Below are positions 5,054 to 53,385 of a stretch of 64,000 bases of DNA, one piece after another; the first letter of the stretch is position 1, and every line of letters starts with the position of its first letter. Origin of the DNA: Paracoccus zhejiangensis. GTDB taxonomy: Bacteria > Pseudomonadota > Alphaproteobacteria > Rhodobacterales > Rhodobacteraceae. The stretch lies in the NCBI RefSeq assembly GCF_002847445.1, contig NZ_CP025433.1:62001-126000 (forward strand), written 5' to 3'. The notes beneath the pieces are model-generated. The model had not been told where the DNA came from and searched no databases. It saw nothing but the letters and a program-made list of their open reading frames with translations. A program made the translations under genes and the position numbers.

Positions 5054-5088
5054 TGCTCCTGTGTGCAAACCCGACCGGCGGTGTCGCG

Positions 5089-5397
5089 CTAGGGGATGCT
5101 CACATTCAGGGTTTGTTGACGGCGGCACAGGGTGCAGAGGTCCGGCACCACCCAGTCCAGGCCGACAAGCTTCAGCAGGCTTTGCACGAACCCAGTCGTT
5201 TGTCGCAAGGGCATGCCAAAGAGCACCTTCAATGTCAGGCAGGTCAGGATCGCCGTGTCACCGTAGCTCGGTTTTCTGCCACGCTTGCTGGTCGGCGGCG
5301 GTGCCCAGATCATTTCTGGATCAAACCAGATTGTCAGCGATCCGCGCCGCTAAAACGCATCATTGTAAGCCGACCAGTTCGTGGTCTGGTATTCGTA
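5089..5397 (-). pseudogene. IS5-family transposase remnant with internal stop
   Basis: On the minus strand the frame from 5397 reads a typical IS5-group N terminus (TNWSAYNDAF, then RRGSLTIWFDPEM, then VLFGMPLRQTTGF and LVGLDWVVPD). An in-frame TAG at 5350-5352 falls where the family normally has a short linker before RRGSLT. The C-terminal catalytic two thirds are missing: the frame ends at 5089, shortly after the RRQQTLNVSIP segment. No ATG is present at the 5' end. This is a dead fragment just downstream of virD4, and it marks the edge of the transfer block. Confidence 0.85.
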
Positions 5398-5409
5398 GCT
5401 GCCCAACTG

Positions 5410-5638
5410 CTCATGCCTACAAGCTATCATACTGGGTTCACGCGGTGAATCTTCCACCCGATTCGTGCGCGAAAGCCAGTGCCATTGATATTTACAAATT
5501 AATTTTAAGAAAGAAGATGTTTATTGTTTATGATATTGTCATTTTGTATTTTAATATAAGGAATCGAGTAATTAATATATGGGCGTTTTCGCGATGTCCA
5601 TTATCCATTTTTTACAATGTTCAGATAGGAGCGCAAAG
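5410..5638. other. AT-rich intergenic patch before the subtilase
   Basis: Bases from about 5485 to 5635 are strikingly AT-rich, with runs such as aattttaagaaag and ttttaatataagg, against a GC-rich background. It probably carries the promoter of the downstream peptidase, but no hexamer pair with correct spacing could be assigned with confidence. The abrupt base-composition change right after a broken IS5 copy suggests the peptidase arrived with its own leader DNA. Confidence 0.5.
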
Positions 5639-36888: not shown

Positions 36889-38001
36889 TTAGGCCGCCGT
36901 CCACATTCCACCCGCCCCATTCGAGCGGACACACGCGCGGATGAAACGCATTCCTGCAAGTCCGTCCTCGGCGGTAGCCAGCGCTCGCGTCGACGCCAAG
37001 CCCTTACCTTCGATCAGATCCGCCGCATCGGCGTATAGAGTTGCGAACGCCTCCAGATAGCCCTCGGGATGGCCGGACGGTATGCGGCTTGGCGTTTGGG
37101 TCAAGCCGTCACCGCGGCGCAGCAGGCGGGTCGTGTCGCCAAGCGGGGTGAATTCGAGCAGATCAGGGTCTTCCTGATCCCATGCCAGCCCCCCCCTTTC
37201 GCCGGCGATGCGGAACCGCAGCGCGTTTTTGGTGCCGGGGGCGATCTGGCTTGCCCAGATCATCCCCTTCGCGCCGCCGTCGAAACGCAAGAGGACTGCC
37301 GCGTTGTCATCCAGCCGCCGTCCCGGCTCGAAGGCGGTGAGGTCGGCAAGAACGGCCTGAACTCCAAGCCCCGAAACAAATGTGGCGAGATTTACGGCAT
37401 GCGTTCCGATATCCGCGATGCAGCCGCCCTCGCCCGACAAGCCGGGATCGGTGCGCCAGACGGCCTGTTTCTGCCCGCTCTGTTCAACGGGTCCGGCCAG
37501 CCAGTCCTGCAAATATTCCACCTGCACATGACGCACCGCCCCGATTGCCCCTTCGGCGATCATCCGGCGCGCCTCGCGCACCATCGGATAGCCTGTATAG
37601 GTCTGGGTCAGCACGAAGGGCACGGATGTTTCGGCTGCCAGCGCAGCCAGTTCCTCGGCCTCGGGAAGCGTCGCGGTCATCGGCTTGTCGCAGATCACTG
37701 CAATGCCTGCCCGCAGGAAGGCCGTCGCCACCTTGGCATGAAGGTGGTTCGGCGTGACGATCGCCACCGCAGCGATCCCGTCAGGACGAGCTGCCTCGGC
37801 CAAAGCCATCTGCGCGAAATCGGAATAGCTGCGGTCGGGCGCAATGCCGAGATCCGCCGCCGAAGCCGCGGCCCGTGCCGGGTCGGAGGACAGCGCCCCC
37901 GCAACCAACTCCCACCGCCCATCCAGCCTTGCGGCCATGCGGTGGACCCCGCCGATGAAGGCCCCTTGTCCTCCGCCGACCATGCCCAGTTTCAGTGTCA
38001 T
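36889..38001 (-). CDS. Gfo/Idh/MocA-family NAD(P)-dependent oxidoreductase
   Basis: These enzymes oxidise or reduce a sugar/polyol hydroxyl using a Rossmann domain. From ATG 38001 the 370-residue product opens with LKLGMVGGGQGAFIGG (dinucleotide loop), carries AVAIVTPNHLHA and the VICDKPMTATL motif (the EKP-like lysine), then a C-terminal alpha/beta half with GGCIADIGTHAVNLA where the catalytic His/Asp are expected. ATG 38001 overlaps the previous gene by four bases (ATGA). It is the last gene of the sugar operon; the second dehydrogenase is at 41878-43044. The substrate is unknown. Confidence 0.93.
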   Translation of the reverse strand: MTLKLGMVGGGQGAFIGGVHRMAARLDGRWELVAGALSSDPARAAASAADLGIAPDRSYSDFAQMALAEAARPDGIAAVAIVTPNHLHAKVATAFLRAGIAVICDKPMTATLPEAEELAALAAETSVPFVLTQTYTGYPMVREARRMIAEGAIGAVRHVQVEYLQDWLAGPVEQSGQKQAVWRTDPGLSGEGGCIADIGTHAVNLATFVSGLGVQAVLADLTAFEPGRRLDDNAAVLLRFDGGAKGMIWASQIAPGTKNALRFRIAGERGGLAWDQEDPDLLEFTPLGDTTRLLRRGDGLTQTPSRIPSGHPEGYLEAFATLYADAADLIEGKGLASTRALATAEDGLAGMRFIRACVRSNGAGGMWTAA

Positions 38002-39062
38002 GACCGGATCCCCAGCATTGCGTCCAGCACCGCCTGATCGGCCCTCCCGCCTGCGAAATCGTCGAAGGCCTGCCCCGTCACCTCGATCAGATGACGGGCG
38101 ATAAAGGGCGCACCCTCGGCGGCACCCTGCGCCGGGGATTTCAGGAAGCACTCCCATTCCATCACCGCCCAGCCGCGATAGCCGTGCTGGGTCAGCCGCG
38201 TGAAGACGGCCGGAAAATCCACCTGCCCGTCGCCAAGGCTGCGGAAACGCCCCGCCCGTTCCACCCATGGCGAATAGCCGGAATAGACGCCCTGCCGACC
38301 ATCGGGGCGGAACTCGGCGTCCTTGACGTGGAACGCCGAGATACGGTCATGATAGATGTCGATGAAGGCCAGATAATCCATCGCCTGTAACAGGAAGTGC
38401 GACGGGTCGTAGTTGATCCTCGCGCGGGGGTGTTCGGCCACGGCAGAGAGGAACCTCTCCCAGCTTGCGCCGTCGAACACATCCTCGCCGGGGTGCAGTT
38501 CGAAGCCAATATCGACACCCGCATCGTCATAGGCATCAAGGATGGGGGTCCAGCGGCGGGCAAGTTCGGCGAATGCCGTCTCGACCAGTCCGGCGGGGCG
38601 CTGCGGCCAAGGATAGAGATAGGGGAAGGCCAGCGATCCGGTGAAGCTGACCGTTCCCGAAAGCCCCAGACGCCGCGCCGCCGTTGCGGCCTTGGTCACC
38701 TGATCGACCGCCCATGCCTGCCGTGCGCCGGGATTGCCCCGCACCGTTTCCGGCGCGAAGGCATCGAAGGCCGCGTCATAGGCGGGATTCACCGCGACCA
38801 ACTGTCCTTGCAAGTGCGTGGACAATTCCGTGATGGCGATGCCCGCTTCGGCGCAAATGCCCACCACCTCGTCAGCATAGGTCTGACTTTCGGCGCAGAG
38901 GTTCAGATCGAACAACCGCCGATCCCAGGACGGGATCTGCACGCCTTTGTAGCCCAGCCCTGCCGCCCAGGCCGTGATCGCGGGCAGGCTGTCGAAGGGT
39001 GCATCATTCCCCGCGAATTGCGCCAGAAAGATGCCCGGACCCTTGATCGCACTGCCCGTCAT
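37998..39062 (-). CDS. TIM-barrel sugar phosphate isomerase/epimerase family protein
   Basis: A 354-residue xylose-isomerase-like TIM barrel (AP-endonuclease-2 superfamily). Metal-site style residues appear in FELHPGEDVFDG, INYDPSHFLLQ, AFHVKDAEFRPDG and WAVMEWECF, and each is in the expected barrel order (Glu, Asp/His, His, Glu). Such proteins act as epimerases, isomerases or dehydratases on sugars and inositol derivatives. It overlaps both its neighbours by four bases. A second TIM barrel, at 44350-45171, is more distant. Confidence 0.9.
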   Translation of the reverse strand: MTGSAIKGPGIFLAQFAGNDAPFDSLPAITAWAAGLGYKGVQIPSWDRRLFDLNLCAESQTYADEVVGICAEAGIAITELSTHLQGQLVAVNPAYDAAFDAFAPETVRGNPGARQAWAVDQVTKAATAARRLGLSGTVSFTGSLAFPYLYPWPQRPAGLVETAFAELARRWTPILDAYDDAGVDIGFELHPGEDVFDGASWERFLSAVAEHPRARINYDPSHFLLQAMDYLAFIDIYHDRISAFHVKDAEFRPDGRQGVYSGYSPWVERAGRFRSLGDGQVDFPAVFTRLTQHGYRGWAVMEWECFLKSPAQGAAEGAPFIARHLIEVTGQAFDDFAGGRADQAVLDAMLGIRS

Positions 39063-39360: not shown

Positions 39361-40317
39361 TCAGCCCCGCTTCTGGCTCAGCGCAACGGCAAGGATGATG
39401 ATCGCGCCCTTTGCAATCAGCTGCTGGCTGAACTCCAGCCCCATCAGGATCAGGCCATTGTTGATCATCCCGATCATCAGCGCGCCGACGATGGTGCCGA
39501 TGACCGTCCCCTTGCCGCCGAACAGGCTCGTCCCGCCAAGGACGGCCGCGGCGATGACCGACAACTCATCCCCTTCGCCAAGCTGGAAGCGGCCCGATTG
39601 CAGACGGCCAGCGTAAAGCATCCCGGCCAGCGCGGCAGCGCAAGAGGACAGGACCAGCACCTTGAACTTGATGCTGCGCGTATCGATACCGGAATAGCGC
39701 GCCGCCATTTCGCCCCCGCCGGTCGCCAGCACCTTGCGGCCAAAGCCGGACCGGCGCAGCGCGACATGACCGACGCCCGCGATCACGGCCATCCAGAACA
39801 TCAGGACGGGGATCGGGCCGACCGAGCCGCCCCCGAAGATCCAGGAATAGCCGGGGGACAGGATCGGCACGGCCGCCGTGTCGGAAATCCACATGGCCAC
39901 GCCCTTGGCGATGCCCATCATGGCAAGTGTCGTCAGGAAGGACGGAATGCCGATCCGCGTCGTGAGCCAGCCGTTGAACATCCCGACGGCCAGCCCCGTC
40001 GCCAACCCGGCAAGGATGCCGCCAACAGGCCCGGCGATGGCAATCGCCATTGCAACCGTCACCGTGGTCAGCCCCGCCACCGCACCCACCGACAGGTCGA
40101 TCTCGCCCGCCGACAGCACGAAGGTCATGGCCACCGCCATCACCGCGATCATCGCGGTCTGCCGCACGATGTTCAGCAGGTTGTTCGGATTCAGGAACCC
40201 CTTGTCGTTCAGCGTCAGCGCAAAGACGATGAATATCACCACGAAGCCAATATAGATGATGTTCTGCCGCCAATTGGCGAAGAATGCCCCGGCGGGGGCG
40301 GTTGCTGCCTTAGCCAT
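39361..40317 (-). CDS. ribose/xylose-type ABC transporter permease
   Basis: A 318-residue RbsC-like permease with about nine or ten hydrophobic segments. It includes a glycine-rich LSVGAVAGLTTVTVAMAIAIAG stretch and the conserved AAAVLGGTSLFGGKGTVIGT motif of the BPD_transp_2 family. It follows the ATPase with an 8-base overlap. One permease with a two-domain ATPase implies a homodimer channel. Substrate: a sugar or polyol, not resolved from sequence. Confidence 0.95.
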   Translation of the reverse strand: MAKAATAPAGAFFANWRQNIIYIGFVVIFIVFALTLNDKGFLNPNNLLNIVRQTAMIAVMAVAMTFVLSAGEIDLSVGAVAGLTTVTVAMAIAIAGPVGGILAGLATGLAVGMFNGWLTTRIGIPSFLTTLAMMGIAKGVAMWISDTAAVPILSPGYSWIFGGGSVGPIPVLMFWMAVIAGVGHVALRRSGFGRKVLATGGGEMAARYSGIDTRSIKFKVLVLSSCAAALAGMLYAGRLQSGRFQLGEGDELSVIAAAVLGGTSLFGGKGTVIGTIVGALMIGMINNGLILMGLEFSQQLIAKGAIIILAVALSQKRG

Positions 40318-41881
40318 GGCTGGCCTCCTTGATGGTCAGGGCTTTCTGGATTTCCACCTGAAGGCGGCGCTCGGCCGCCTGCAGGGCATTTTCGGGGTTC
40401 GTCTCAGAGGGATCGTCCAGTTCGGAGCGGTCCAGCATCTGATGCGCCCGGCCATCCGCCATCACGAGGATGCGGTCGCAGGCTGTCAGCAATTCCGACA
40501 GTTCCGAGGAGATGACGATCACCCCCTTGCCAGACTGTGCCAGTTCCCGCACGAGACGGATGATCTCGGCCTTGGACCCGATATCGATTCCTGCCGTCGG
40601 TTCGTCGAGGATCAGGATCTCGGGTTCAGTAGCCAGCCACTTGCCGATCACCACCTTCTGCTGGTTTCCCCCCGACAGCGTGGACACCGCATGGTCGCGG
40701 CTTGCCGTCTTGATCGACAGTCGGGCGATCATGTCCTCGGCGATGTCACGCACGCGGCCACGGTCCACGAAACCCTTCGGCGCGATGCGCCCGATCACCG
40801 ACATGACCATGTTGTCAGCAACGCTATGCGCCGGGATGATGCCCTGCGTCGCCCGGGCCTCGGGCACCAGCGCGATGCCGTGGGCCACGGCATCGGCCGG
40901 GCGGCGGATCCCCGCTTTCATGCCCTTGATGCGGATCTCGCCCGAAACGGCGGGTTCGATACCTGCAATGACGCGGGCCAAGGCGGACCGACCGGAGCCG
41001 AGCAGGCCCGCAAGTCCCAGCACTTCCCCCCGATGCAGCGCGAAACTGACGTTCTCGGGTTTGTGCGGGCCGGTCACATTCGCAAGGTCCAGCAGAACCT
41101 CGCCCCGCGACACGTCACCCCGGGCGACATCAGCCAGCCCTTTGGATTTCTTGCCGACGATATGTTCGATCATCACGTCGATGGGCAGATCGGCCAGCGG
41201 CGCGGTGATCACATGTTTTCCATCCCGCAGGATCGTTGCGCGGTCCGCGATGCGGGCAATCTCGTCCATGCGGTGGCTGACATAGATGATCGCCACGCCC
41301 TTGGCCTTCAGCTGCCGCAGAAAGACGAACAGCCGTTCCACATCCGACACAGAAAGCGCGGTCGAAGGTTCATCGAGGATCAGCACCCGCGCATCCTGAC
41401 TGATCGCCTTTGCAATCTCGGTCAGTTGCTTCTGCCCCGCCCCCAGATCGCCGACCAGCGCGGTCGGATCAACCTCGACCTGCAACATGTCGAAGATCGC
41501 CTGCGCCCGCCGGACAGAATCGGCATCGTCGATCATCCCGCGCGCATCGCGAGCTTCGCGGGTCAGGAAGATGTTCTGCGCCACAGTCAGCGTGGGGATC
41601 AGCGACATTTCCTGAAAGTTCATGGCGATCCCTGCCGCCCGCGCCGCTTCGGGCGAGTGGGCGGCCAGTTTCTGGCCACCAACCTCGATCTCGCCCTCCT
41701 CCGGCACGTGAACGCCGTTCAGGACCTTCAGGATGGTGGACTTCCCCGCCCCGTTACCGCCAAGCAGGGCGTGGACCTCACCGGCAAACACCTCGAAATC
41801 CACTCCATCCAGCGCGCGAATGCCGCCGAAGGATTTGGAAATCCCCGTCATCCGCACGGCAACCGGGGCGGGGGCGGTCAT
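40310..41881 (-). CDS. double-domain sugar ABC transporter ATP-binding protein
   Basis: RbsA/MglA-like, 523 residues from ATG 41881. The N-terminal domain has GGNGAGKST (Walker A), LGAGQKQLTE (signature) and VLILDEPSTAL (Walker B). The C-terminal domain has a degenerate Walker A (LLGSGRSALA), but an intact LSGGNQQKVVIGK signature and ILILDEPTAGIDIG Walker B, the usual arrangement. The ATG overlaps the end of the dehydrogenase gene by four bases (41878). It pairs with the permease and the binding protein of the operon. Confidence 0.95.
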   Translation of the reverse strand: MTAPAPVAVRMTGISKSFGGIRALDGVDFEVFAGEVHALLGGNGAGKSTILKVLNGVHVPEEGEIEVGGQKLAAHSPEAARAAGIAMNFQEMSLIPTLTVAQNIFLTREARDARGMIDDADSVRRAQAIFDMLQVEVDPTALVGDLGAGQKQLTEIAKAISQDARVLILDEPSTALSVSDVERLFVFLRQLKAKGVAIIYVSHRMDEIARIADRATILRDGKHVITAPLADLPIDVMIEHIVGKKSKGLADVARGDVSRGEVLLDLANVTGPHKPENVSFALHRGEVLGLAGLLGSGRSALARVIAGIEPAVSGEIRIKGMKAGIRRPADAVAHGIALVPEARATQGIIPAHSVADNMVMSVIGRIAPKGFVDRGRVRDIAEDMIARLSIKTASRDHAVSTLSGGNQQKVVIGKWLATEPEILILDEPTAGIDIGSKAEIIRLVRELAQSGKGVIVISSELSELLTACDRILVMADGRAHQMLDRSELDDPSETNPENALQAAERRLQVEIQKALTIKEASHG

Positions 41882-43044
41882 TCCACCCGCTCCCACTTGC
41901 CGGTTTCACCCGACCGAAGCAGGGCATCGGCCACCAGTTCCGTCAGCAGACCATCCTCGAAATTCGGGCTGGGCTGCTTGCCGCTGGCAATCGCGCTGAA
42001 CAGGTCGAAGCATTCGACGATCTTCGTTTCCGAATAGCCGATGCCCAGACCGGGGATCGGCCACAGACCGCCGCCATAGGGATGGGCTGGACCAGTGTAG
42101 ACCGTGCGGAAGCCGCGTGCATCGGCGGGGTCGTCGGCGAACATCACCTGCAACTCGTCACGGCGTTCGTAGTTGAAGTGGATCGACCCCTTCGTCCCGT
42201 GGATTTCCAGCGTGATGAAGTTGTTCCGACCCCATGCGTTGCGCGTGGCCTCCAGGCTGCCGATGGCCCCGTTGCCGAAGCGCAGCATCGACACCACCTC
42301 GTCATCCACATCCACCGGAGCACGTTCGGCATCAGCGGATTTCTCCGACGCACCCAGCTTGTCCACCCCGCCCTGCTGGATGGGGCGCGTCGTGACATAG
42401 GTCTTGGTCATGGCGATCACCTCGGCAATGGGACCGACGAGGTAATGCGCAAGGTCCACCACATGGGTCCCGATATCCCCCACCGTGCCCGACCCCGCGA
42501 TCTTCTTCTGAAAGCGCCAGGACAGCGGCCCGTTCTCATCTGCCGACCAGTCCTGAAGGTAGGTGCCGCGGAAGTTCAGGATGCGGCCGATGCGGCCTTC
42601 CTCGATATATTTCTTGGCCAGCGCCACGGCGGGCGTGCGGCGGTAGTTGAAGGCCACCATGTGGATGATGCCTGCGGCCTTCGCGGCTTCGGTCATCGCG
42701 CGGGCCTCTTCCACGGTGCGGGCGAGGGGCTTTTCGCAGATGATGTGCTTGCCCGCCTTGGCGGCGGCGATGGCAATCTCGGCATGGACATTGTTCGGCG
42801 TGCAGATGTCGACCACGTCGATATCGGGCCGCTCCACCACGCTGCGCCAGTCGCTGGAGGCTTCGTCAAAGCCGAAGCGGCGGCGGGCTTCCTCGGCGGC
42901 GCCATCGGTCATGTCCACGACCACCTTGCGGTGCGGGATTGCCGGGGCGGGCCAGAAGAACATCGGCATCGAGGCATAGGCCATGGCATGCGCCTTGCCC
43001 ATGAACCCGCCACCGATCATGGCGACGTTCATCACTTTGGTCAT
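41878..43044 (-). CDS. Gfo/Idh/MocA-family oxidoreductase (second copy)
   Basis: A 388-residue dehydrogenase, opening MNVAMIGGGFMGKAHAMAY (dinucleotide-binding loop), with DICTPNNVHAEIA, ICEKPLARTVEEA (Lys in EKP) and SGTVGDIGTHVVDLAHYL (catalytic Asp/His area). ATG 43044 has a plain upstream region. It is only moderately similar to the dehydrogenase at 36889-38001, so the two probably act at different steps. Hairpins sit between it and the binding-protein gene. Related to inositol- and glucoside-3-dehydrogenase-like enzymes, but the substrate is undetermined. Confidence 0.94.
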   Translation of the reverse strand: MTKVMNVAMIGGGFMGKAHAMAYASMPMFFWPAPAIPHRKVVVDMTDGAAEEARRRFGFDEASSDWRSVVERPDIDVVDICTPNNVHAEIAIAAAKAGKHIICEKPLARTVEEARAMTEAAKAAGIIHMVAFNYRRTPAVALAKKYIEEGRIGRILNFRGTYLQDWSADENGPLSWRFQKKIAGSGTVGDIGTHVVDLAHYLVGPIAEVIAMTKTYVTTRPIQQGGVDKLGASEKSADAERAPVDVDDEVVSMLRFGNGAIGSLEATRNAWGRNNFITLEIHGTKGSIHFNYERRDELQVMFADDPADARGFRTVYTGPAHPYGGGLWPIPGLGIGYSETKIVECFDLFSAIASGKQPSPNFEDGLLTELVADALLRSGETGKWERVE

Positions 43045-43172: not shown

Positions 43173-44294
43173 TCACTGCATCGAGGCCTTGATGTTGTCG
43201 GTCGCTTCGGTCGAGTAGACCTGCTTCCACGCGTCGAGCAGGTTGTCCTTGCTGACGGGCAGCGCAGGCAGGGCCACGAAGTCGGGCGCATCCTTGTCGA
43301 GCAGGGCGTAGCCTGCCAGCTTCGCCTCGACCACGCCGGCGTCATAGGGACGCTGTGCGCCAAGGCCCTTCATGAAGCCGCCCTGCGCCATGCTGATGGC
43401 GACGTTTTCGCCAAGGTCGACGGTGGTGATGATCAGATCATCGCGGCCATTGGCGCGGGCGGCGGCCATCACGCCTTCGGCCGGAACGTCCCAGACCGCC
43501 CAGATGCCCTTGATGTTCGGGTTCGCGGTCAGCATCGCGCCAGCCGCCTTCTCCGCATCGCCCGAGAAGTCCGGCCCGCCGATCCCCTGTTCTTCCACGA
43601 TCTTGATGTTCGGGTAGTCGCTGGCGATCGTCGCCTTGAACGCGTCATAGCGCTGCTTCGTTACGAAGAAGTCGGCGGCGTGGAACACGAGCCCGATTTC
43701 GCCCCCGTCAGGGCCAAGCGCCTTGGCCATCAGATGGGCTGCGGCGACGCCATTGCCGTAGTTGTCGGCCGAGACGACCGAGACATAGTCGGTGCCCGGA
43801 ACGAAGCCCGTCGGGACGTTGTCCATGAACACGAGCTTGGCCCCGGCCTCATGCGCGGCGCGGTAGGCGGCGGCGGTGGCGGTGGGGTCGGTCGGGATCG
43901 ACACGATGATGTCGGGCGACTGCGCCATGATGGTTTCAAGGTCGCTGACCTGCTTTTCGGGCTTGAAGCCCGCATCGGTCACGGAGATCACTTTGATCCC
44001 CATCGCGGCGAACTGGGTCTGCAGGCCGTTGATCTGCGCCTGGCTCCAGTCGTTGCCGGCGTAATGCATCACGATGGCAGCGGTGGCGCCCATCTCCTTG
44101 ATCTTGGCCAGCTCTTCATCGCTGAGCACGACATCCGAGGCGGGCGAGGGGTCTTCACCGCTCGGTCCCTTGGACAGGACGGTTTCCTGCAACTTGGCAA
44201 GCGCCGCGTCCGGATCTGCAAAGGCCGGGGCGGCGATCCCCATCAAAAGCGCAAGCGCGGTCGCCGAGCCCATGAGGCTGCGTCTGGTCATCAT
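43173..44294 (-). CDS. periplasmic sugar-binding protein of the ABC transporter
   Basis: A 373-residue type-1 periplasmic binding protein. The signal peptide MMTRRSLMGSATALALLMG with an AFA|DP cleavage marks export, probably Sec. The body has the family's alternating pattern, with TAAIVMHYAGNDWSQAQI, SPDIIVSIPTDPTATAAAYRAA, KLVFMDNVPTGFVPGTDYV and VSADNYGNGVAAAH. It is the first transporter gene and is followed by hairpins, then the dehydrogenase and ATPase. It is paralogous to the cytoplasmic product of 46762-47772. Confidence 0.95.
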   Translation of the reverse strand: MMTRRSLMGSATALALLMGIAAPAFADPDAALAKLQETVLSKGPSGEDPSPASDVVLSDEELAKIKEMGATAAIVMHYAGNDWSQAQINGLQTQFAAMGIKVISVTDAGFKPEKQVSDLETIMAQSPDIIVSIPTDPTATAAAYRAAHEAGAKLVFMDNVPTGFVPGTDYVSVVSADNYGNGVAAAHLMAKALGPDGGEIGLVFHAADFFVTKQRYDAFKATIASDYPNIKIVEEQGIGGPDFSGDAEKAAGAMLTANPNIKGIWAVWDVPAEGVMAAARANGRDDLIITTVDLGENVAISMAQGGFMKGLGAQRPYDAGVVEAKLAGYALLDKDAPDFVALPALPVSKDNLLDAWKQVYSTEATDNIKASMQ

Positions 44295-44349: not shown

Positions 44350-45171
44350 TCAGCCGGCGATTGCCCGGTTCAGGTAGTCCATGCTCAGCCGCGCCCCTTC
44401 GGCGGGGTCACGCCAGGAGTCGAGTTCGGTGCAGACCCAGCCCGCAAAGCCCACATCCCGCATCGCCTTCAGGATCGGCCCCGTCGGCACATCGCCGCGG
44501 TCAAGCGGGGTGAAGGCAAAGGGTTCACGCTGGAAGCCCTTGAGGTGGATGTAGGAAATCCGCTTCGCGTGGTCGCGGATCAGTTGCGCCGGATCACCAC
44601 CGGCTGCGGCCAGATGCGCCGTGTCGGGGCAGAAATCGATGGCGGTCAGGTCGAAGATCTTGGCCACTTCGCCCGGCCCTTCGACGATGGTCGACAAGTG
44701 CGGGTGGTAATGCGCCCGCAACCCCCGCGCCTCGGCCAGCGCCTTCACGCGGTCGAGGGCTGCGCCCAGCTTGTGATAATCCGGCTCGCGCGTGCCGTCG
44801 AAACGCTTGGCCCCGCCGCCCACCACCAGATGCGGCGCGCCCAGTTCGGCGGCACGGTCGGCGGCGCGCGTCACGCGGGCCAGTTCCTCGGGCAGAATGT
44901 CGTCGAAGATGAAGTTCCCGCCCGCATAGGTGGCGACCAGTTCCAGCCCGTTGTCGGCCAGAAGCTTGCGCATCTCGGCGGCGCTGTAGTCCAGCAGGTT
45001 GCCGTCGAACAGCTCCACCCCGGCATAACCAGCGGCAGCGATGTCGGCGCAGGCGCGGTCCATATCGCCGTAGGTGCGGTAGGCCAGTTGCGTGATCGAG
45101 GTGACGCCCACGGCATCGCCCCCGAGCCCCCCCCAGCAATTGGCGTGATAGGCCAGCTTCCAAGCTGTCAT
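44350..45171 (-). CDS. TIM-barrel isomerase/dehydratase (IolE-like)
   Basis: A 273-residue AP-endonuclease-2 type TIM barrel resembling inosose dehydratase/isomerase proteins. It begins WKLAYHANCWGG, has AGYAGVELFDGNLLDYS, FCPDTAHLAAAGG, YIHLKGFQREPFAF and WVCTELDSW with the metal/Glu residues in order. It is the first gene of the minus operon (55 bases before the binding protein) and is divergent from the ROK regulator, so it is probably the first target of control. Reaction not certain; inositol-like substrates are plausible. Confidence 0.88.
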   Translation of the reverse strand: MTAWKLAYHANCWGGLGGDAVGVTSITQLAYRTYGDMDRACADIAAAGYAGVELFDGNLLDYSAAEMRKLLADNGLELVATYAGGNFIFDDILPEELARVTRAADRAAELGAPHLVVGGGAKRFDGTREPDYHKLGAALDRVKALAEARGLRAHYHPHLSTIVEGPGEVAKIFDLTAIDFCPDTAHLAAAGGDPAQLIRDHAKRISYIHLKGFQREPFAFTPLDRGDVPTGPILKAMRDVGFAGWVCTELDSWRDPAEGARLSMDYLNRAIAG

Positions 45172-45295: not shown

Positions 45296-45332
45296 CTTAT
45301 GTCTGATTACTTCTGCATTTTTACAGCATAAG
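45296..45332. promoter_or_regulatory. inverted repeat in the ROK-operon divergent gap
   Basis: cttatgtctg (45296-45305) and cagcataag (45324-45332) form near-perfect inverted arms with one unpaired base, 18 bases apart, in an AT-rich stretch of the 223-base gap between the isomerase gene and the ROK gene. This is where a ROK regulator's operator would be expected. Tentative. Confidence 0.4.
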
Positions 45333-45394
45333 TTTTTCCTTGAACGGCAGAAGGACGCCCTTTATCCCTTCTGAAACCCTGCAAGGACGCGATT

Positions 45395-46765
45395 TTGCCC
45401 CTGACTGCCCAGGACCTGACCGAATCGCCCCGCCCCCGCGGCAAGGGACGGCCGCGCACGGTGGAAACCGCTGCGCCATCGCTGGTCGAACTCCTGAACC
45501 TCGTCCGCACGGGTGCCGCCAACACGCGGCAGGAACTGGAACGCCAAAGCGAATTCGGCCGCGCCGTGGTGGCGGATCGCCTGACGATGCTGGGCGATCT
45601 GGGACTGGTGGACGAAAGCGAACTGGGCACCGCCACGGGCGGCCGAGCGCCGCGACTGGTGCGCTTTGCCGCGCGACGCGCCGCGATCCTTGTCGCCACG
45701 CTGGATCAAACCGCGATCGGGGTAGGTGTGGCCGACCTTTCCGGCAAACTCCTGACCGAACATCACGAAGCCGCCGACCTGACCGCCCCGCCCGCCGAAC
45801 TGGCCGATCGTCTGACAGCACTCTTCCGCTGGTCGATGGAGCGTCATGCACCGCAGGGCGGCATATGGGGCATCTCCCTCTCCGTCCCCGGGGCCGTTCA
45901 GGGCGCGACGGAGGGTGACTTCCTGACCGCCACGCCGCCGGTCCTTCCCGCCTGGGAAGGGTTTCCACTTGTCGAAACGCTGACGCGCGATTTCGGCGTG
46001 CCGGTCTGGATGCGGTCCAGCGTCGAGACGATGACGATGGGCGAGCTGCACGCAGGCGCGGCGATCGGCACGCGCAGTATGCTTTTCCTGAAGGTCGGCC
46101 GCCGCATCGGCGCGGGCATCGTCTGCGACGGCCAGCTGTATCGTGGCGCGCATGGCGCGGCAGGCCTGATCGGATCGCTTCCAGTCACCTCAGGCGGGCG
46201 AAGCGGCCCTCTCGATGCCCTCGCAGGATCGGACATGATCCAGCGCGAAGGTCTATCGGCGGCACAGGACGGGCGAAGCCCCATGCTGGCCGACATCCAG
46301 CGCCGCGGTGGCGAGATCACGGCCATCGAAGTCTCGCAAGCCGCACAGATCGGCGATCCCGCCTCGGTCGCGATCCTGACCGAGTCGGGCCACCTGATCG
46401 GTCAGGTCGTGGCGACGCTGGCCAATGCGTTGAACCCGGAACTGATCGTGCTGTCGGGGTCCATCGTGCAGACGAACGACATCCTCCTCGCCGCGGTGCG
46501 CGAGGCGGTCTATGGCGCATCGCATCCCTTCGTCACGCGCGACCTGCGGATCATCCGGTCGCAGATGGGCAGTTCGGCCGGACTTGTCGGCGCGGCCCGC
46601 GTGGCCTCGGAACAGCTGTTCGCGCCGAGTTTCCTGAAGGAATGGGTGATGCAGGGTAGCCCGCTTGCCCATCCGGCCTTCGCCGCCCTGCAGGATCGGC
46701 TTTCGCAAACCGCACCGCCCCCTCCGCCGCCAAGGGCGGGGACCGGACAGGAGCTTCCGAGATGA
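45395..46765 (+). CDS. ROK-family transcriptional regulator with degenerate sugar site
   Basis: Regulators of this family join an N-terminal winged helix to a ROK kinase-like sugar-sensing domain. The 456-residue product starts at TTG 45395 with AAGGA at 45383-45387. Helix-turn-helix lies at about 28-75 (LVELLNLVRTGAANTRQELE, FGRAVVADRLTMLGDLGLV). ROK-like parts include SVPGAVQGA and KVGRRIGAGIVCDGQLYRGAHG. The usual ExGHxxV and CxCGxxGCLE zinc motif is replaced by GLIGSLPVTSGGRSGPLDAL with no cysteine, so the ligand/zinc site is degenerate. A Pro-rich tail closes it. Its stop overlaps the next gene's start (ATGA). It probably controls the divergent sugar operon. Confidence 0.9.
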   Translation: MPLTAQDLTESPRPRGKGRPRTVETAAPSLVELLNLVRTGAANTRQELERQSEFGRAVVADRLTMLGDLGLVDESELGTATGGRAPRLVRFAARRAAILVATLDQTAIGVGVADLSGKLLTEHHEAADLTAPPAELADRLTALFRWSMERHAPQGGIWGISLSVPGAVQGATEGDFLTATPPVLPAWEGFPLVETLTRDFGVPVWMRSSVETMTMGELHAGAAIGTRSMLFLKVGRRIGAGIVCDGQLYRGAHGAAGLIGSLPVTSGGRSGPLDALAGSDMIQREGLSAAQDGRSPMLADIQRRGGEITAIEVSQAAQIGDPASVAILTESGHLIGQVVATLANALNPELIVLSGSIVQTNDILLAAVREAVYGASHPFVTRDLRIIRSQMGSSAGLVGAARVASEQLFAPSFLKEWVMQGSPLAHPAFAALQDRLSQTAPPPPPPRAGTGQELPR

Positions 46766-47772
46766 CGATATCCGGCCTCGGCCCGCATGGCGAACGCGCC
46801 GCCCCGCCCGAACGGGTCAGCCTGCTGCCCGACGACCGCACCGCCGCCAAGGCGGCCGGATGGCGCGTTGCCGTGGTCCTGCACACCTTGGAAAGCGACT
46901 GGGCCAAGCAGCAACTTGCCGGCATGATGGGTATCTTCGGCGATTGCGGCGCCGCGGTGATCGATGTCGTGGATTGCGCCTTTTCCCCCGACATGCAGGT
47001 GGCCGAACTTGACCGGCTGATCTCGCAACGCCCCGATGCGATCATCTCCCTTCCCGTGGCGAATGAACAGGTCGCCGCCGCGCACCGCCGGGTGTCCGAG
47101 GCGGGAATAAAGCTGGTCCTGCTGGACAACGCGCCCACCGGCCTGTTGCCGGGCAAGGACTACACGGCGCTGGTGTCTTCGGACAACTTCGGTCTGGGCA
47201 AGATCGCGGCCGCCGGACTTTCTCCCCGCATCCCCGACGGGGCGAAAGTCGGCGTCCTCGGCTTCGCCGCCGATTTCTTCGCTACGAACGAACGCGAGAT
47301 CGCCTTCACCAAATGGCTTCAGGTGAACCGCCCCGACATCACACCGCGCATCCACCGCTTCGCGCGGATCGAGGACTCAGCCGCAGCCGCGGATGACCTT
47401 CTGTCGGCAAACCCCGATCTGGCCGGGCTATTCGTCGTTTGGGACACGCCTGCCCTTGCCGCAGCCACCCGCCTTGCAGAACGCGGCGCAACGATGTCCA
47501 TGGCAACCGTGGACCTCGGAGAGGCCGCAGCCATCGCCCTCGCAACGGGCAATTCCTTCTGCTGCATCGCAGCCCAGCAGCCTTTCCTCCAAGGGATCAC
47601 AGCCGCACAGACCGTGATCCTGTGCCTTCTCGGTCGCCCCGTTCCCGCCTGGATCGCCCTACCCGGCATTGGCGTCACACGGGACAACGTGGTCGAAAGT
47701 TTCCAGACGATCTGGCGGCAACCGGCCCCGCGCGAAGTGCTCCGCGTGCTGGGCCTGTCGCGCGGCAAATGA
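46762..47772 (+). CDS. cytoplasmic periplasmic-binding-protein-like protein, ROK partner
   Basis: A 336-residue type-1 binding fold without a signal peptide: it starts MTISGLGPHGERAAPP. Its body parallels the operon's exported binding protein: MQVAELDRLISQRPDAIISLPV against KQVSDLETIMAQSPDIIVSIPT, then VLLDNAPTGLLPGKDY against VFMDNVPTGFVPGTDY, and ATVDLGEAAAIALATG near the C terminus. It has no helix-turn-helix and is coupled to the ROK gene by a 4-base overlap. A cytoplasmic ligand sensor for the degenerate ROK protein is the most economical reading, but this is inference. Alternative: a sugar-binding protein whose signal was lost. Confidence 0.85.
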   Translation: MTISGLGPHGERAAPPERVSLLPDDRTAAKAAGWRVAVVLHTLESDWAKQQLAGMMGIFGDCGAAVIDVVDCAFSPDMQVAELDRLISQRPDAIISLPVANEQVAAAHRRVSEAGIKLVLLDNAPTGLLPGKDYTALVSSDNFGLGKIAAAGLSPRIPDGAKVGVLGFAADFFATNEREIAFTKWLQVNRPDITPRIHRFARIEDSAAAADDLLSANPDLAGLFVVWDTPALAAATRLAERGATMSMATVDLGEAAAIALATGNSFCCIAAQQPFLQGITAAQTVILCLLGRPVPAWIALPGIGVTRDNVVESFQTIWRQPAPREVLRVLGLSRGK

Positions 47773-48421: not shown

Positions 48422-48606
48422 TCGCCTTCCCGGCGGGGGTGCGCGTGTGGATCGCGGGTGGGGTGACGGACATGCGGCGCGGCATGAACACGCTGGCGCT
48501 GACAGTTCAGCAGGGACTCGGGCGCGATCCGCATGCGGGCGAGATCTTCTGCTTTCGCGGGCGCAAGGGCGACCTGGTCAGCTTGTTGCCTGCCGGGCAA
48601 CGATAG
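48418..48606 (+). pseudogene. IS66 TnpB remnant, truncated by IS1182
   Basis: Residues up to about 54 (RVWIAGGVTDMRRGMNTLAL, FCFRGRKGDLVS) are the N-terminal half of IS66 TnpB (family length near 115). After about 48577-48586 the sequence belongs to the opposite-strand IS1182 copy, and the frame closes at a stop by chance. The third IS66 gene, tnpC, is absent. Not functional. Confidence 0.85.
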
Positions 48607-49646
48607 ACGTCGCGTTCCGGATCGTAGAGAAAGTCCGCCTTGACGAACATGCCTTTGCCTTCGTTGCCCGAGGTGGCGGGCCGCGGCACGGTCGTGGTGA
48701 TGCCCACCTCATGGCAGGCAAGGATCTCGGTGCCGCTGAAGTAGCCCTTGTCGACATTGGCGTGCAGGTCGTCGCGGCCGAGAGCCTCCTTGGCCGCCAC
48801 CGCCATCGGGCTCAGTTGATCGCGGTCAAAACCCTGGTTCGTGACGTCATGCGTGACGATGATGTGGGTCTCGGTATCGACGACATTCTGGACGTTGTAG
48901 CCGACGAGCCCGCTGTGCCGGGCGCTGGTCGCCATGGTGCGGGCATCTGGATCAGTCAGGGATATCTGGCCGTCCGGCGCGTCGGCCAGGGCCTTGTCCA
49001 TCGCCTTCAGCCGCGCGACCTCCTGCCGGATGCGGCCGTAGCGGCGGGCAAGATGGGCGACCTTCTCAGTGCGCGCCTCGCCTTCCTCCTGCCCGTCGAT
49101 GCGGACCATCTCGTTGATGTAGCGTTCGACATCGGCCTCGAGATGCGCCAGGCGGCTGGCGATCTTGCCCTTGGTGAAGTTGCGGTCGCGGTTGTTCACC
49201 GCCTTGAACTTGCTGCCATCGATCGCGACGCAATCGCCCTTCAGCGTGCCGATCCGGCGGCAGAGTTCCACGAACTGCGCGCAGGTCTTGCCGATGGCCG
49301 GGCCATTGTCGCGCCGGAAGTCGGCGATAGTCTTGTGGTCCGGCACAAGCCGACCGGTCAGCCACATCGCCTCGACATTGCGCCCCGCCTCGCGCTCCAG
49401 CCGTCGGCTGGAAGGGATCCGGTTCAAATAGCCGTATATGAACAGCTTGAGCAGGACCGCAGGGTGATATCCGGGCCGCCCCGTCCGTGCCGGGGCCGAA
49501 CGCACGAAGCCAAAGCCTGGTAGATCAAGCTCATCGACAAAGAGATCAACGACGCGAACGAGGTGATCTTCGCCGATCCAGTCCTCCAACCGCTCCGGGA
49601 AAAGGGCGGTCTGGCCACGCCCAATACCTTCGATGAAACCCGCCAT
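48507..49646 (-). pseudogene. IS1182-family transposase, 3' truncated
   Basis: The N-terminal 350 residues look sound: MAGFIEGIGRGQTALFPERL, RTGRPGYHPAVLLKLFIYGY, RRDNGPAIGKTCAQFVELC, CVAIDGSKFKAVNNRDRNF and NVDKGYFSGTEILAC. The protein then stops matching after YRCPAGNKL and runs into IS66 DNA. The family is usually about 450-480 residues, so roughly 100 residues and the 3' inverted repeat are gone. The remaining DDE core is incomplete. It lies head to tail against the IS66 fragment. Confidence 0.85.
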
Positions 49647-49753: not shown

Positions 49754-52057
49754 CTACTGCGATGCCCTTCCGGCACGCCCTCGGACGGCTTCACTGACCT
49801 TTGCACCTAGTTCTTTCGCTGCGCCAGTCGTGGAGGGCTTCGCGGCAAGGCAGCGGGCAAGCCTGTGTCGAGCGCGTAAAACCTCGGGAGCGACCATGTC
49901 GGCGGCCGAGGCCGTCACAAGAAGCTCCATTGCCGCCCGCAGAGACGATGGCGATAGCATCCGGTCACGTGCCTCGATGGCGTTGATCAGGTCGTCTGCC
50001 ATGCGGGCTTCGAGCCAGGTAAACAGCTCACGCGGCAGCGCGCTCCCGGCCGTGCGGAGCCGTTCCAGGCGGAGCGTCAGTGCCGTGATCTGACGGTCCG
50101 CAGCCGTCAGCAAGGCTGTGTGCAGGTCGCGCGCCGCTTCCAAGACCTCTGCGCGCCATTCACTCCTGATCCCCCGATCCAGCAGATCATGCGCGCGTCC
50201 CGTGCCGAGCAACGCCGCGACCCCAGCAACCGGCCCAAGGATCAGCGCCCCCGCGGGGCCGAGGACCACAAGGCCCAGGATCGCGCCCCCGGCCTGTCCC
50301 GCGCCGGCCAGACCACCGCGGACGGACAGGTCGATCACCAGCCATGCCGGCAGATCCTCGACCGGGATCTTTCCTGTCCATGCTTTATGTGCCGCGCGTG
50401 CTCCGCCGATGATCGTCGCATAGAGAGGCACAGGCACATCCGCCAATCCGGCGGCAGCCTCAAGTGATCGGTCGACGAGGCTCTGGACATGATCGAGATC
50501 GAAACCGCTCGCGGTCGTCACCATTGGCGCCCAGGGCTCATCCAGAACTTGGGCCTGTGCGGCCAAAGCGTTATCGGCGATGACCGGAATGTCAGGGTAT
50601 TTCGCGAAATGGTCATGCAACAACGAGATGCTGGTGCCGCATTTGACTTGGACCGGAACGCCATCGACGATCAAGTCGTAGCCCGGCATCGTGGAACTCT
50701 CGGGCAGGATCACATCGTGGCCGTCTTCGATCAGTTGCGCCATGACCAGTTGCTCGGCGCTGTAACCCCGCAATGCAACCCGGGCACCCAGAGAGGCGAA
50801 ATTCGCGATATGAACCGAAAGGTCCAGCGGCGTGTCGAACTCGGACACGCGCGAGAAATCGGCAGCGGCCAGAACGGAGGGATCGACGGCCGCTGCGTGA
50901 TAAAGCATGTCGCCTGCGGTCAGACCTGCAACGAGAGCCGTGTTCTGACGGTCGGTGCTTTGCTCGACGGCGATCCGCGCACCCCAGAGACCTGGCGCCG
51001 CATCTGACACGGAAGGAATGTCCGTCGACAGGGTGGCGATGATTGTCCCGGCCCGCATCCGAACAGCCTTGCGCTGCTTGCCGTCGAGATGGCGCAGCTC
51101 TGTGTCGGGCATCCGGTAGAGCCCTCGAAACGCGTTCAAGAGCGTAGCCATCCCGTTGACCGCACCCTGACCGCGCACGGCCAAGAGGATCGCGACCCTT
51201 GCGGCGGCAATCTCAAGAGCGGCGCTGGCCCGGCTGCTGATCGCCCAATAGCCAAGGGTCGCGCTGCCGGCGATGACGGTCACGGGATTGATCATCACGA
51301 ACAGAAGCGATGTGAGCGTCGGCCCCGCCACGAAAGGAATGACGGATGAGAGGTGGGCCGCCATGAGATAAGGCGCAAAGCCCGCCGACCCGATCGCGGT
51401 GGCCAATGCGGCCCATCCGCCGCCGGCAAGAACCGCAGTAGAGATGGCCTGCTGGCCCTTGCGGATAGCTTCGGCAACCTCGGGATCCAGCTCTCCGCGG
51501 TCGCTCGCTGCCGCAAGGCCCTTCATCATGACCATCATCTCATGCGCGACGACATCCGGAAAGGTCACCGCCGCCCGCGCGCGCCTGCCGACGCCCGTCG
51601 CGCGGCGCAGCAGCTGCCGTCCCGCCCGACCCGTGATCGACAGGTCGGCATCCGCCCTCTCTTGCTGCGCATTGGCGACGGCAGGGGCGAGGATCTCGGA
51701 GGCCCGGACGGCGATGGCGGCGGCCTCCTCCTCCATGCTGCGGGTTGAAAGAGGATAGAGGTCCGGCAGCCCAAGACTCTGCTTCACGCCGAGCCACAGC
51801 CTTGATCGCAGCGCATCCGTCGAGAGGGGCCCGCTCATAAGATCCTTGGCGAAAGCGGTCACACGATCGGCACCCTGCTTGTCGTCCGAGACAAGCTTTC
51901 GCCAGGCGGCCTCGCCCACGGCGCCTGCAATTTTTGCAAGACGTGCGGCGTTCAGCAGGGCCAAGAGGCCACAGATTTCCTGGCGGGACGCATCGCCCAG
52001 ACCGGCAGCGATGTGGCGGGGAGACGGAGCGGCCTGTTGGGAGATCATATTCGGCAT
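49754..52057 (-). CDS. unrecognised 767-residue protein with PD-(D/E)XK-like motif and hydrophobic blocks
   Basis: I do not recognise a family. The N-terminal ~200 residues are helical. A hydrophobic Gly-rich block at about 205-277 and a second at about 578-617 (GGAILGLVVLGPAGALILG) suggest membrane association. Between them, residues about 415-490 show a restriction-endonuclease-like core: the helix YSAEQLVMAQLIEDGHDV, then GYDLIVDG (D near 458), then VPVQVKCGTS (QxK near 468-470). The C terminus is helical and charged. ATG 52057 has a weak AGG ribosome site. It stands alone between IS1182 and IS110 sequence. It could be a defence or toxin-like nuclease; no catalytic activity is proven. GC content resembles the surroundings. 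Confidence 0.7.
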   Translation of the reverse strand: MPNMISQQAAPSPRHIAAGLGDASRQEICGLLALLNAARLAKIAGAVGEAAWRKLVSDDKQGADRVTAFAKDLMSGPLSTDALRSRLWLGVKQSLGLPDLYPLSTRSMEEEAAAIAVRASEILAPAVANAQQERADADLSITGRAGRQLLRRATGVGRRARAAVTFPDVVAHEMMVMMKGLAAASDRGELDPEVAEAIRKGQQAISTAVLAGGGWAALATAIGSAGFAPYLMAAHLSSVIPFVAGPTLTSLLFVMINPVTVIAGSATLGYWAISSRASAALEIAAARVAILLAVRGQGAVNGMATLLNAFRGLYRMPDTELRHLDGKQRKAVRMRAGTIIATLSTDIPSVSDAAPGLWGARIAVEQSTDRQNTALVAGLTAGDMLYHAAAVDPSVLAAADFSRVSEFDTPLDLSVHIANFASLGARVALRGYSAEQLVMAQLIEDGHDVILPESSTMPGYDLIVDGVPVQVKCGTSISLLHDHFAKYPDIPVIADNALAAQAQVLDEPWAPMVTTASGFDLDHVQSLVDRSLEAAAGLADVPVPLYATIIGGARAAHKAWTGKIPVEDLPAWLVIDLSVRGGLAGAGQAGGAILGLVVLGPAGALILGPVAGVAALLGTGRAHDLLDRGIRSEWRAEVLEAARDLHTALLTAADRQITALTLRLERLRTAGSALPRELFTWLEARMADDLINAIEARDRMLSPSSLRAAMELLVTASAADMVAPEVLRARHRLARCLAAKPSTTGAAKELGAKVSEAVRGRAGRASQ

Positions 52058-52317: not shown

Positions 52318-53385
52318 ATGTGTGCGAAGAAGACAGGAAGCATTGAAGACCTGGCAGTTGTCGGCATCGACATCGGCAAGGATACCTTCCACCTGGTCGG
52401 TTTCGACCGCTCGGGTCAGGTGGTTTTGCGCAAGCAGATCAAGCGGCTCGCACTGGACGCAACGTTCGAGACGTTGCCACGATGCGTGGTCGGGATGGAG
52501 GCCTGCCTCAGCGCCCATTTCGTCAGCCGAAGGCTGCGCGACTTGGGGTTCGATCCGCGGATCATTCCGGCGATCTACGTGAAGCCGTTCAACAAAGGCC
52601 AAAAGAACGACTACAACGATGCGGAGGCGATCGCCGAAGCCTCCCTGCGGCCGAACCTTCGGACGGTGACGGAGAAGAGCCAGGACCAGCTCGACCTTCA
52701 GGCCCTGCACCGGGTTCGGTCTCGGCTCGTCTCGCGACGTACGGCAACGATCAACCAGATCCGGGCTTTCCTGATCGAACAGGGGATCGCGGTCCGCAGC
52801 GGGCTCCGCGCCTTGCGGAATTCCTTCGAGACGATCCTCGAACAGCGGCGCGACGAGATCTCTGCCCGGATGCGGAATATCCTGATCGGGCTTTACGGCG
52901 ACTGGCTCTGGCTCGATGACCGGATTGCCGCCGTATCAACCGAGATCGAGGAGATCAGCCGTACGGAAGAGAACTGCGCGAACATCATGTCGATCCCGGG
53001 TATCGGACCGATGATTTCGACGGCCATGGTCGCGGCGGTCGGTCGGGGCGAGGTCTTCGACCGGGGCCGCGACTTTGCCGCCTGGGTTGGGCTGGTGCCC
53101 CGACAGTTCAGCACGGGCGGGCGTACGATCCTCGGACGGATCACCAAGCGGGGAAGCCGATACCTGCGCATGCTCTTCGTGCAGGCCGCCAAGGTGATCA
53201 TGATGCGCCCCCACCGTTGGCAGGCGTTCAGCTTCGGAGCCTGGCTCGAACGCGCCGCATCCCGAATGCCCAGGAACAAGGCTGCGGTTGCCCTGGCCAA
53301 CAAGCTGGCCCGCACGGCGTGGAGCATCCTGCGTCACGGCACGCGGTTCGACACCCCCAGAGATCCGACCATGGAAGCAATCTGA
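52318..53385 (+). CDS. IS110-family transposase (DEDD recombinase)
   Basis: A 355-residue transposase with the N-terminal RuvC-like DEDD domain (AVVGIDIGKDTFHLVGFD) and the C-terminal Tnp domain with IPGIGPMISTAMVAAVG, FAAWVGLVPRQFSTGG and GSRYLRMLFVQAAK. It is full length and uninterrupted. The reading direction is opposite to that of the 767-residue gene upstream. IS110 elements have no inverted repeats at their tips and carry structured non-coding ends, so the element limits could not be set, but they likely lie at about 52200-53480. Confidence 0.95.
   Translation: MCAKKTGSIEDLAVVGIDIGKDTFHLVGFDRSGQVVLRKQIKRLALDATFETLPRCVVGMEACLSAHFVSRRLRDLGFDPRIIPAIYVKPFNKGQKNDYNDAEAIAEASLRPNLRTVTEKSQDQLDLQALHRVRSRLVSRRTATINQIRAFLIEQGIAVRSGLRALRNSFETILEQRRDEISARMRNILIGLYGDWLWLDDRIAAVSTEIEEISRTEENCANIMSIPGIGPMISTAMVAAVGRGEVFDRGRDFAAWVGLVPRQFSTGGRTILGRITKRGSRYLRMLFVQAAKVIMMRPHRWQAFSFGAWLERAASRMPRNKAAVALANKLARTAWSILRHGTRFDTPRDPTMEAI

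Follow-up and report, generated by a model that had tools for sequence, protein, structure and literature searches.

A ROK regulator with an emptied sugar site and a signal-less sugar-binding partner: a putative two-chain regulator of alphaproteobacterial levoglucosan clusters

Sugar sensing by ROK repressors is generally attributed to the kinase-like domain of the repressor itself, and the locus described here raises the question of how such a regulator could respond to its ligand once the sugar site of that domain has been lost. The window (the whole stretch of DNA analysed, 64,000 nucleotides from Paracoccus zhejiangensis) contains a gene for a ROK-family regulator followed by a gene for a sugar-binding-type protein without signal peptide (hereafter PART), both divergent from an operon that encodes an exported sugar-binding protein (SBP) of an ABC transporter (Table 1). 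A previous sequence-only reading of this DNA had proposed that ligand sensing was moved from the ROK protein to its partner; its coordinates and frames, and the ATGA by which the two genes overlap, were confirmed. The results presented below suggest that sensing and DNA binding may be split between two proteins, ROK and PART probably acting together as a split repressor-sensor for levoglucosan catabolism.

Table 1. Genes and sites of the ROK-PART locus and the divergent operon (positions in the window).
Feature	Position	Strand	Remarks
Gfo/Idh/MocA oxidoreductase	36889..38010	-	start assumed; listed open frame longer
Second IolE-like TIM-barrel enzyme	37998..39062	-	PF01261
Sugar ABC transporter permease	39361..40317	-	PF02653
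Sugar ABC transporter ATPase	40310..41896	-	profile matches
LgdA, levoglucosan dehydrogenase	41878..43044	-	NF052479, 717.9 bits (curated cut-off 650)
SBP, exported sugar-binding protein of ABC transporter	43173..44294	-	PF13407, 148.8 bits; signal peptide by sequence
IolE-like TIM-barrel enzyme, gene 1 of divergent operon	44350..45171	-	PF01261
Candidate operator, palindrome ACTTCTGCATTTTTACAGCATAAGT	45309..45333		only genome match at <=1 mismatch
ROK-family regulator	45395..46765	+	TTG start, 456 aa; PF00480, 112.1 bits (cut-off 22.9)
Ser208-Ser209 replacing sugar-site Asn-Asp	46016..46021	+	alignment with the ROK of L098
GLIGS replacing G-E/D-x-G-H, no CxCG behind	46163..46177	+	alignment, motif table
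ATGA shared by the ROK stop and PART start codons	46762..46765	+
PART, signal-less Peripla_BP_4 protein, putative cytoplasmic sensor	46762..47772	+	336 aa; PF13407, 94.7 bits (cut-off 35.1)
Nearly invariant PART N-terminus GLGPHGERA (residues 5-13)	46774..46800	+	identity at each residue at least 97.5% over 80 rows

Levoglucosan is a sugar from burnt wood. Since LgdA scored over its curated cut-off and since the accessible text of PMC7676230 describes a cluster of Bacillus smithii in which the enzymes for levoglucosan, LgdA, B1, B2 and C, are accompanied by a LacI gene and an ABC transporter, levoglucosan is most likely the substrate of the divergent operon. The contig that carries the cluster is 150,390 bases long, in a genome of 4,637,247 bases in five contigs. 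The cluster has two transposase genes on its PART side, one of the DUF772 type (48507-49646, -) and one of the IS110 type (52318-53385, +), and between them a 767-residue open frame (49754-52057, -) with no Pfam or NCBIfam match at E 0.001.

The window ROK contains both the ROK domain and the N-terminal DNA-binding part, as judged from the PF00480 score and from a profile alignment in which the ROK profile aligned with the chains of Mlc, Lmo0178 and XylR from their N-terminal part on. The accessible text of PMC2742894 defines the family by five sugar-contact residues and the zinc motif GHx(9-11)CxCGxxG(C/H)xE, and the window ROK departs from this definition: N, D, E and H of the canonical site are S, S, L and S, and CxCG is missing. 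In the alignment with a partner-less relative, which has N-D and D..H, the same positions are S-S and L..S, so that the zinc and sugar motif whose absence had been reported was not misread.

Emptying of the sugar site was general among ROK proteins encoded next to PART. In 85 PART-bearing ROK rows (four of 80 loci were excluded for lack of a full-length ROK, and some rows come from the same or near-identical species), neither the Asn-Asp pair nor an acid at the glutamate position of ExGH was kept in any, and the three zinc cysteines were retained in five; two further PART-bearing rows likewise had no Asn-Asp. In total, sugar-site Asn-Asp and ExGH acid were retained in 0 of 87. A base-rate sample was taken from 60 regions found by two ROK searches, of which 58 gave 61 ROK frames of at least 340 residues; the regions were mainly low scorers, and the sample is therefore biased toward degenerate sites. 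Within it, 59 partner-less alphaproteobacterial repressors were compared: 17 kept the three cysteines and 51 the Asp, and two lacked both the Asp and the acid at the E position. Both were also missing in one (L099, from Agrobacterium) of ten other partner-less ROKs. Joint loss of the two acids was thus found in 3 of 69 ROKs without PART and in 87 of 87 rows with it. It is ordinary for a ROK repressor to have lost its zinc site, whereas the loss of both acids together is rare without PART. For this reason the missing zinc motif, which the sequence-only reading had treated as diagnostic, was dropped as a key sign. The PART-bearing ROKs form a single clade (support 100/99), and their site loss therefore has to be counted as one evolutionary event and not as a statistical test.

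These frequencies also bear on a different explanation, to which we assign a small but real chance: that ROK itself senses a pathway metabolite through a remodelled pocket, PART merely tuning the response. Many partner-less ROK repressors have degenerate sites, and ROK domains may therefore read ligands by other residues; moreover, the whole ROK domain is under purifying selection (dN/dS of 0.08-0.13 for each of the ROK and PART genes in three comparisons). Against this explanation stands the joint loss of both acids, rare in ROKs without PART and complete in those with it, together with the retention of most sugar-contact positions in PART, as described next.

PART was modelled with AlphaFold2 at a mean pLDDT of 94.9. 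It has the Peripla_BP_4 fold of exported sugar-binding proteins (CUT2, RbsB-like) and no signal peptide, in agreement with the earlier description of a signal-less partner facing an exported binding protein in the divergent operon. When both binding-like proteins of the window were aligned, as had been proposed, PART and SBP were 36% identical (122/335 aligned positions, E 2e-65). The Pfam match covers PART from residue 36 onward, and the protein gave no match to a DNA-binding family. GPHGE or GPRGE occurs within the first 14 residues in all 79 complete rows. The most hydrophobic 13-residue stretch in the first 30 residues reached at most 0.82 in the 79 PART rows, a maximum that rises to 1.63 if the first 45 residues are taken, whereas the SBP rows from these loci, 75 once five loci lacking SBP DNA had been omitted, all scored at least 1.72. 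The call of signal peptides was made from this hydropathy comparison and the N-terminal sequence, not with a trained predictor. The true start of PART is unsure in some overlong frames (e.g., L097, L144 and L146); in 27 further places read upstream of the motif, deep branches and these frames included, no signal peptide was seen by eye. The sequence-only reading would have been contradicted by signal peptides in most partner homologues; none of the PART rows with a readable start has one. PART is thus predicted to be cytoplasmic. Its fold family and its identity to SBP would also fit a second binding protein for the transporter, exported by an unusual route, which we regard as extremely improbable: the hydrophobic N-terminal stretch is absent from all 79 complete rows, the gene overlaps a regulator gene, and the clusters with enough DNA already encode an SBP with a signal peptide.

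The consensus sequences of PART and SBP agree at 11 of the 14 positions aligned with what we take to be the ribose contacts of the ribose-binding protein RbsB, compared with 121 of 330 positions overall (P 0.0014, in a test that treats positions as independent and with the contacts mapped through alignments). Most sugar-contact positions thus appear to be kept in PART.

Conservation of the pair was analysed in a scan of one genome per species, using an alignment of 19 PART proteins as query, which gave 97 relatives, 80 loci being kept. This search for a ROK gene followed by a signal-less binding-fold gene, suggested in the sequence-only reading, placed a ROK gene of the same strand immediately before PART in 79 of the 80 loci; the contig of the remaining one begins inside PART. 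The two genes overlap by 4 bases in 36 of the 79 loci, and they are separated by no more than 10 bases in 59 and by no more than 95 in all. Because of this synteny, the low dN/dS and the near-invariant GLGPHGERA, the arrangement is more than chance. Several genome samples, which overlap one another and the 80 loci, gave the same picture. PART was present in 13 of 297 Hyphomicrobiales genomes, with ROK upstream in all 13; LgdA over the cut-off was found in 11 of the 297, and all 11 carry PART. Two genomes of this set (G798 and G835) encode PART, SBP, ATPase, permease and isomerase and no LgdA. G771 has an LgdA-like gene below the cut-off (555.9 bits) and no PART, and a further hit of the PART search, in G860 (362 bits), is an exported protein without ROK. 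Among 248 Rhodobacteraceae genomes, LgdA over the cut-off and PART occurred in the same six, ROK preceding PART in each; a class-wide sample (385 genomes) contained three with LgdA, all of which had ROK and PART. Shinella sumterensis MEC087, a levoglucosan degrader according to the accessible part of PMC10066097, carries the pair as well (locus L054).

Eight plasmid records of LgdA at 83-90% identity were all alphaproteobacterial and all among the PART records; for those at 66-71% (Deinococcus, Klebsiella twice, Metabacillus and Arthrobacter) there was no PART match above 37%. On an Ochrobactrum plasmid (L297, 8658-9996), seemingly a decayed ROK-PART cluster, PART is intact and ROK is reduced to about its last 96 aligned residues. 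In a Mesorhizobium ROK-PART cluster (L097, 411-8731), a GMC oxidoreductase and a gluconate 2-dehydrogenase subunit 3 are annotated at the place of LgdA, perhaps as another route to the 3-keto sugar. No ROK-PART fusion was found by length among the best 120 of 703 ROK relatives. Nor was any signal-less Peripla_BP_4 gene found within 4.5 kb of the 59 partner-less ROK repressors in a search with one Peripla_BP_4 profile, which would miss other binding folds; three overlong frames all had a signal peptide, and one 16-bit match in a wrong frame was discounted. Other arrangements of such genes were observed. Plasmids of Nitratireductor and Rhizobium (L104 and L108) carry operons with ROK, an M20 peptidase, two tandem binding-protein genes and a permease. 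On a Haloarcula plasmid (L107), a Peripla_BP_4 gene without evident signal peptide and with no ROK annotated beside it (5971-6990, +) starts divergently from a lipoprotein-type ABC binding protein (4591-5793, -), possibly an independent cytoplasmic companion in haloarchaea.

Protein distances were compared across 64 loci with seven genes each. The partial correlation between ROK and PART (0.53) was the highest of the 21 gene pairs, followed by SBP and LgdA (0.41); the adjacent ATPase and permease gave 0.17, and PART and LgdA -0.06. Locus pairs are not independent, and the correlation is therefore supportive only; neighbouring genes that travel as a unit also co-vary through this linkage. These values are relevant to the idea that PART serves in the cytoplasm to buffer levoglucosan or to assist LgdA, co-transcribed with ROK and outside regulation, which we judge unlikely. 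Such a role would agree with the sugar pocket positions retained in PART, and, the ROK and PART genes being translationally close, co-expression alone could hold them together. However, the distances of PART track those of ROK and not those of LgdA, PART occurs with ROK in the two LgdA-less genomes of the 297 and in the Mesorhizobium plasmid cluster without annotated LgdA, its gene lies behind the regulator and outside the catabolic operon, and Arthrobacter and Klebsiella have levoglucosan clusters that lack PART.

ROK regulators bind palindromic operators, and the region between the divergent genes contains a candidate for one (Table 1). Each of the 76 intergenic regions used (filtered from the 80 loci plus the window) matched this palindrome, of the form ACTTnTGn-N9-nCAnAAGT, at 10 to 12 of its 12 positions, the motif having been derived from these same regions, which belong to related loci; 15 of 1520 dinucleotide shuffles reached at least 10 positions (plain shuffles were also run). 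Eight regions had no part in the derivation of the motif. Four were above chance, namely Arthrobacter (11 of 12), G835 (11) and G798 (12), each with 0 of 500 shuffles, and Mesorhizobium (10, with 4 of 500). The palindrome was not above chance in the other four, G289, G310, G1012 and G970, which are four of the seven deep PART-bearing regions outside the 76. Its occurrence also in the partner-less Arthrobacter intergenic region suggests that ROKs serve the same operon in the same way whether or not PART accompanies them. A scan of the window intergenic region for promoters and terminators found nothing, and no promoter was thus recognised near the palindrome. That would be compatible with ROK being an activator when PART is present, or with PART having an effector other than ROK, which we consider quite improbable. 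ROK regulators with this architecture are mostly repressors, and a single palindrome between both start regions fits repression of both operons.

How this arrangement may have arisen was examined with protein trees. A plasmid of Arthrobacter agilis carries a levoglucosan cluster with a divergent ROK and no PART, and this ROK retains N-D, D..H and the three cysteines of the CxCG region. The zinc cysteines are also kept in five PART-bearing ROKs (G289, G835, G1012, G798 and Mesorhizobium 131-2-5), and the loss therefore looks stepwise. These five group with the Cys-less G970 and G1039, apart from the rest (support 89/75, not starred, with a midpoint root). The simplest order would be that the partner was gained and the sugar site lost, and that the zinc site was lost afterwards, perhaps more than once. 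On balance, we are inclined to accept that the task of ligand sensing passed from a ROK repressor to a separate sugar-binding protein in the cytoplasm, and that the resulting two-chain regulator took the place of a self-sensing ROK a single time, in alphaproteobacterial levoglucosan clusters, the sugar site being lost with the arrival of the partner and the zinc site later, in steps that are still visible.

PART proteins form one clade (100/99 in the first tree and 100/100 in the second). The sequence-only reading had called the partner a copy of the transporter's own binding protein. The best trees place PART outside the clade of levoglucosan SBPs. Forcing it into that clade cost 11.19 log units and was just not rejected (p-AU 0.055), in a test that omitted L100, a long SBP row joined to PART in the first tree, and whose group was named after that tree had been seen. 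A recent duplication of the transporter's binding protein as the source of PART is thus neither supported nor rejected. Two exported binding proteins (L147, 9463-10626, and L100, 7887-9002) scored nearer to PART than to the levoglucosan SBPs and are a possible sister group of PART.

The proposal that sensing has moved to the partner is favoured by the conservation of the pair, by the loss of the sugar site in all PART-bearing rows, by the sugar-contact positions kept in PART and by a palindrome shared with a partner-less cluster. By sequence, the window ROK keeps its DNA-binding half and has no canonical sugar site, a conserved palindrome lies between the two operons, and signal-less PART is encoded directly behind ROK; from this we infer repression, sugar binding by PART, its contact with ROK and a direction of switching. 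ROK would bind the candidate palindrome and repress both the divergent levoglucosan operon and its own operon. Imported levoglucosan, or its first product, would close the PART cleft, and an altered contact between PART and ROK would then take ROK off the DNA. The sign of the switch may have two versions, with free PART as a co-repressor or loaded PART as an anti-repressor. Some observations count against a split sensor: partner-less ROKs without the sugar-site pair exist (L099 and two of the 59), four deep regions have no palindrome above chance, and the Ochrobactrum PART is accompanied by a ROK remnant only.

Among the papers listed in literature searches there was no description of a ROK protein paired with a signal-less binding protein. 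The accessible part of a paper on the levoglucosan network mentions ROK-type factors near lgdA, and a signal-less ROK partner was not found in that part (PMC10066097). The pair offers one concrete answer to the question of what alphaproteobacterial ROKs with degenerate sites sense, and it provides a natural series that runs from an intact site without partner, through a partner with zinc cysteines, to a partner with the zinc site lost. The pair is a candidate modular levoglucosan sensor as well, and it cautions that a gene annotated as a transport binding protein may encode a regulator if it has no signal peptide.

The sequence-only reading had taken ROK repressors as normally sensing sugar themselves, which does not hold for all of them: Mlc is a ROK repressor that loses its activity when it binds EIIB, a domain of the glucose transporter. 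ROK and PART would resemble this case in that a ROK repressor is controlled by a transport-tied protein; the partner of Mlc is a domain of a membrane phosphotransferase, whereas PART has a soluble sugar-binding fold. Like the NagC/XylR-type ROK repressors, the window ROK has the family architecture and the DNA-binding part; unlike them, it has no sugar or zinc site and is followed by a partner gene. PART shares with RbsB-like ABC sugar-binding proteins the fold family and most aligned pocket positions, and differs from them in the absence of a signal peptide and in its own nearly invariant N-terminus. The combination of a DNA-binding part with a type-1 sugar-binding fold as putative sensor recalls the LacI family, a gene of which is contained in the Klebsiella plasmid levoglucosan cluster; LacI regulators are one chain, but here there would be two, the DNA-binding chain with an emptied ROK domain. 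The closest parallel may be found among antiterminators. According to the accessible text of PMC3795266, NasS, a binding protein that resembles NrtA but has no signal sequence, retains the RNA-binding NasT and releases it on nitrate or nitrite, a mechanism that AmiC-AmiR may share. As in these systems, in ROK-PART a signal-less transporter-type binding protein is encoded beside a regulator. In NasS-NasT (nitrate) and AmiC-AmiR (amides) the effector is an ANTAR RNA-binding antiterminator, whereas ROK is a DNA-binding protein and the ligand would be a sugar; moreover, the NasS-NasT complex separates on ligand, and a complex of ROK with PART is a putative one. By this analogy, ROK-PART may best be read as a DNA-binding counterpart of AmiC-AmiR and NasS-NasT.
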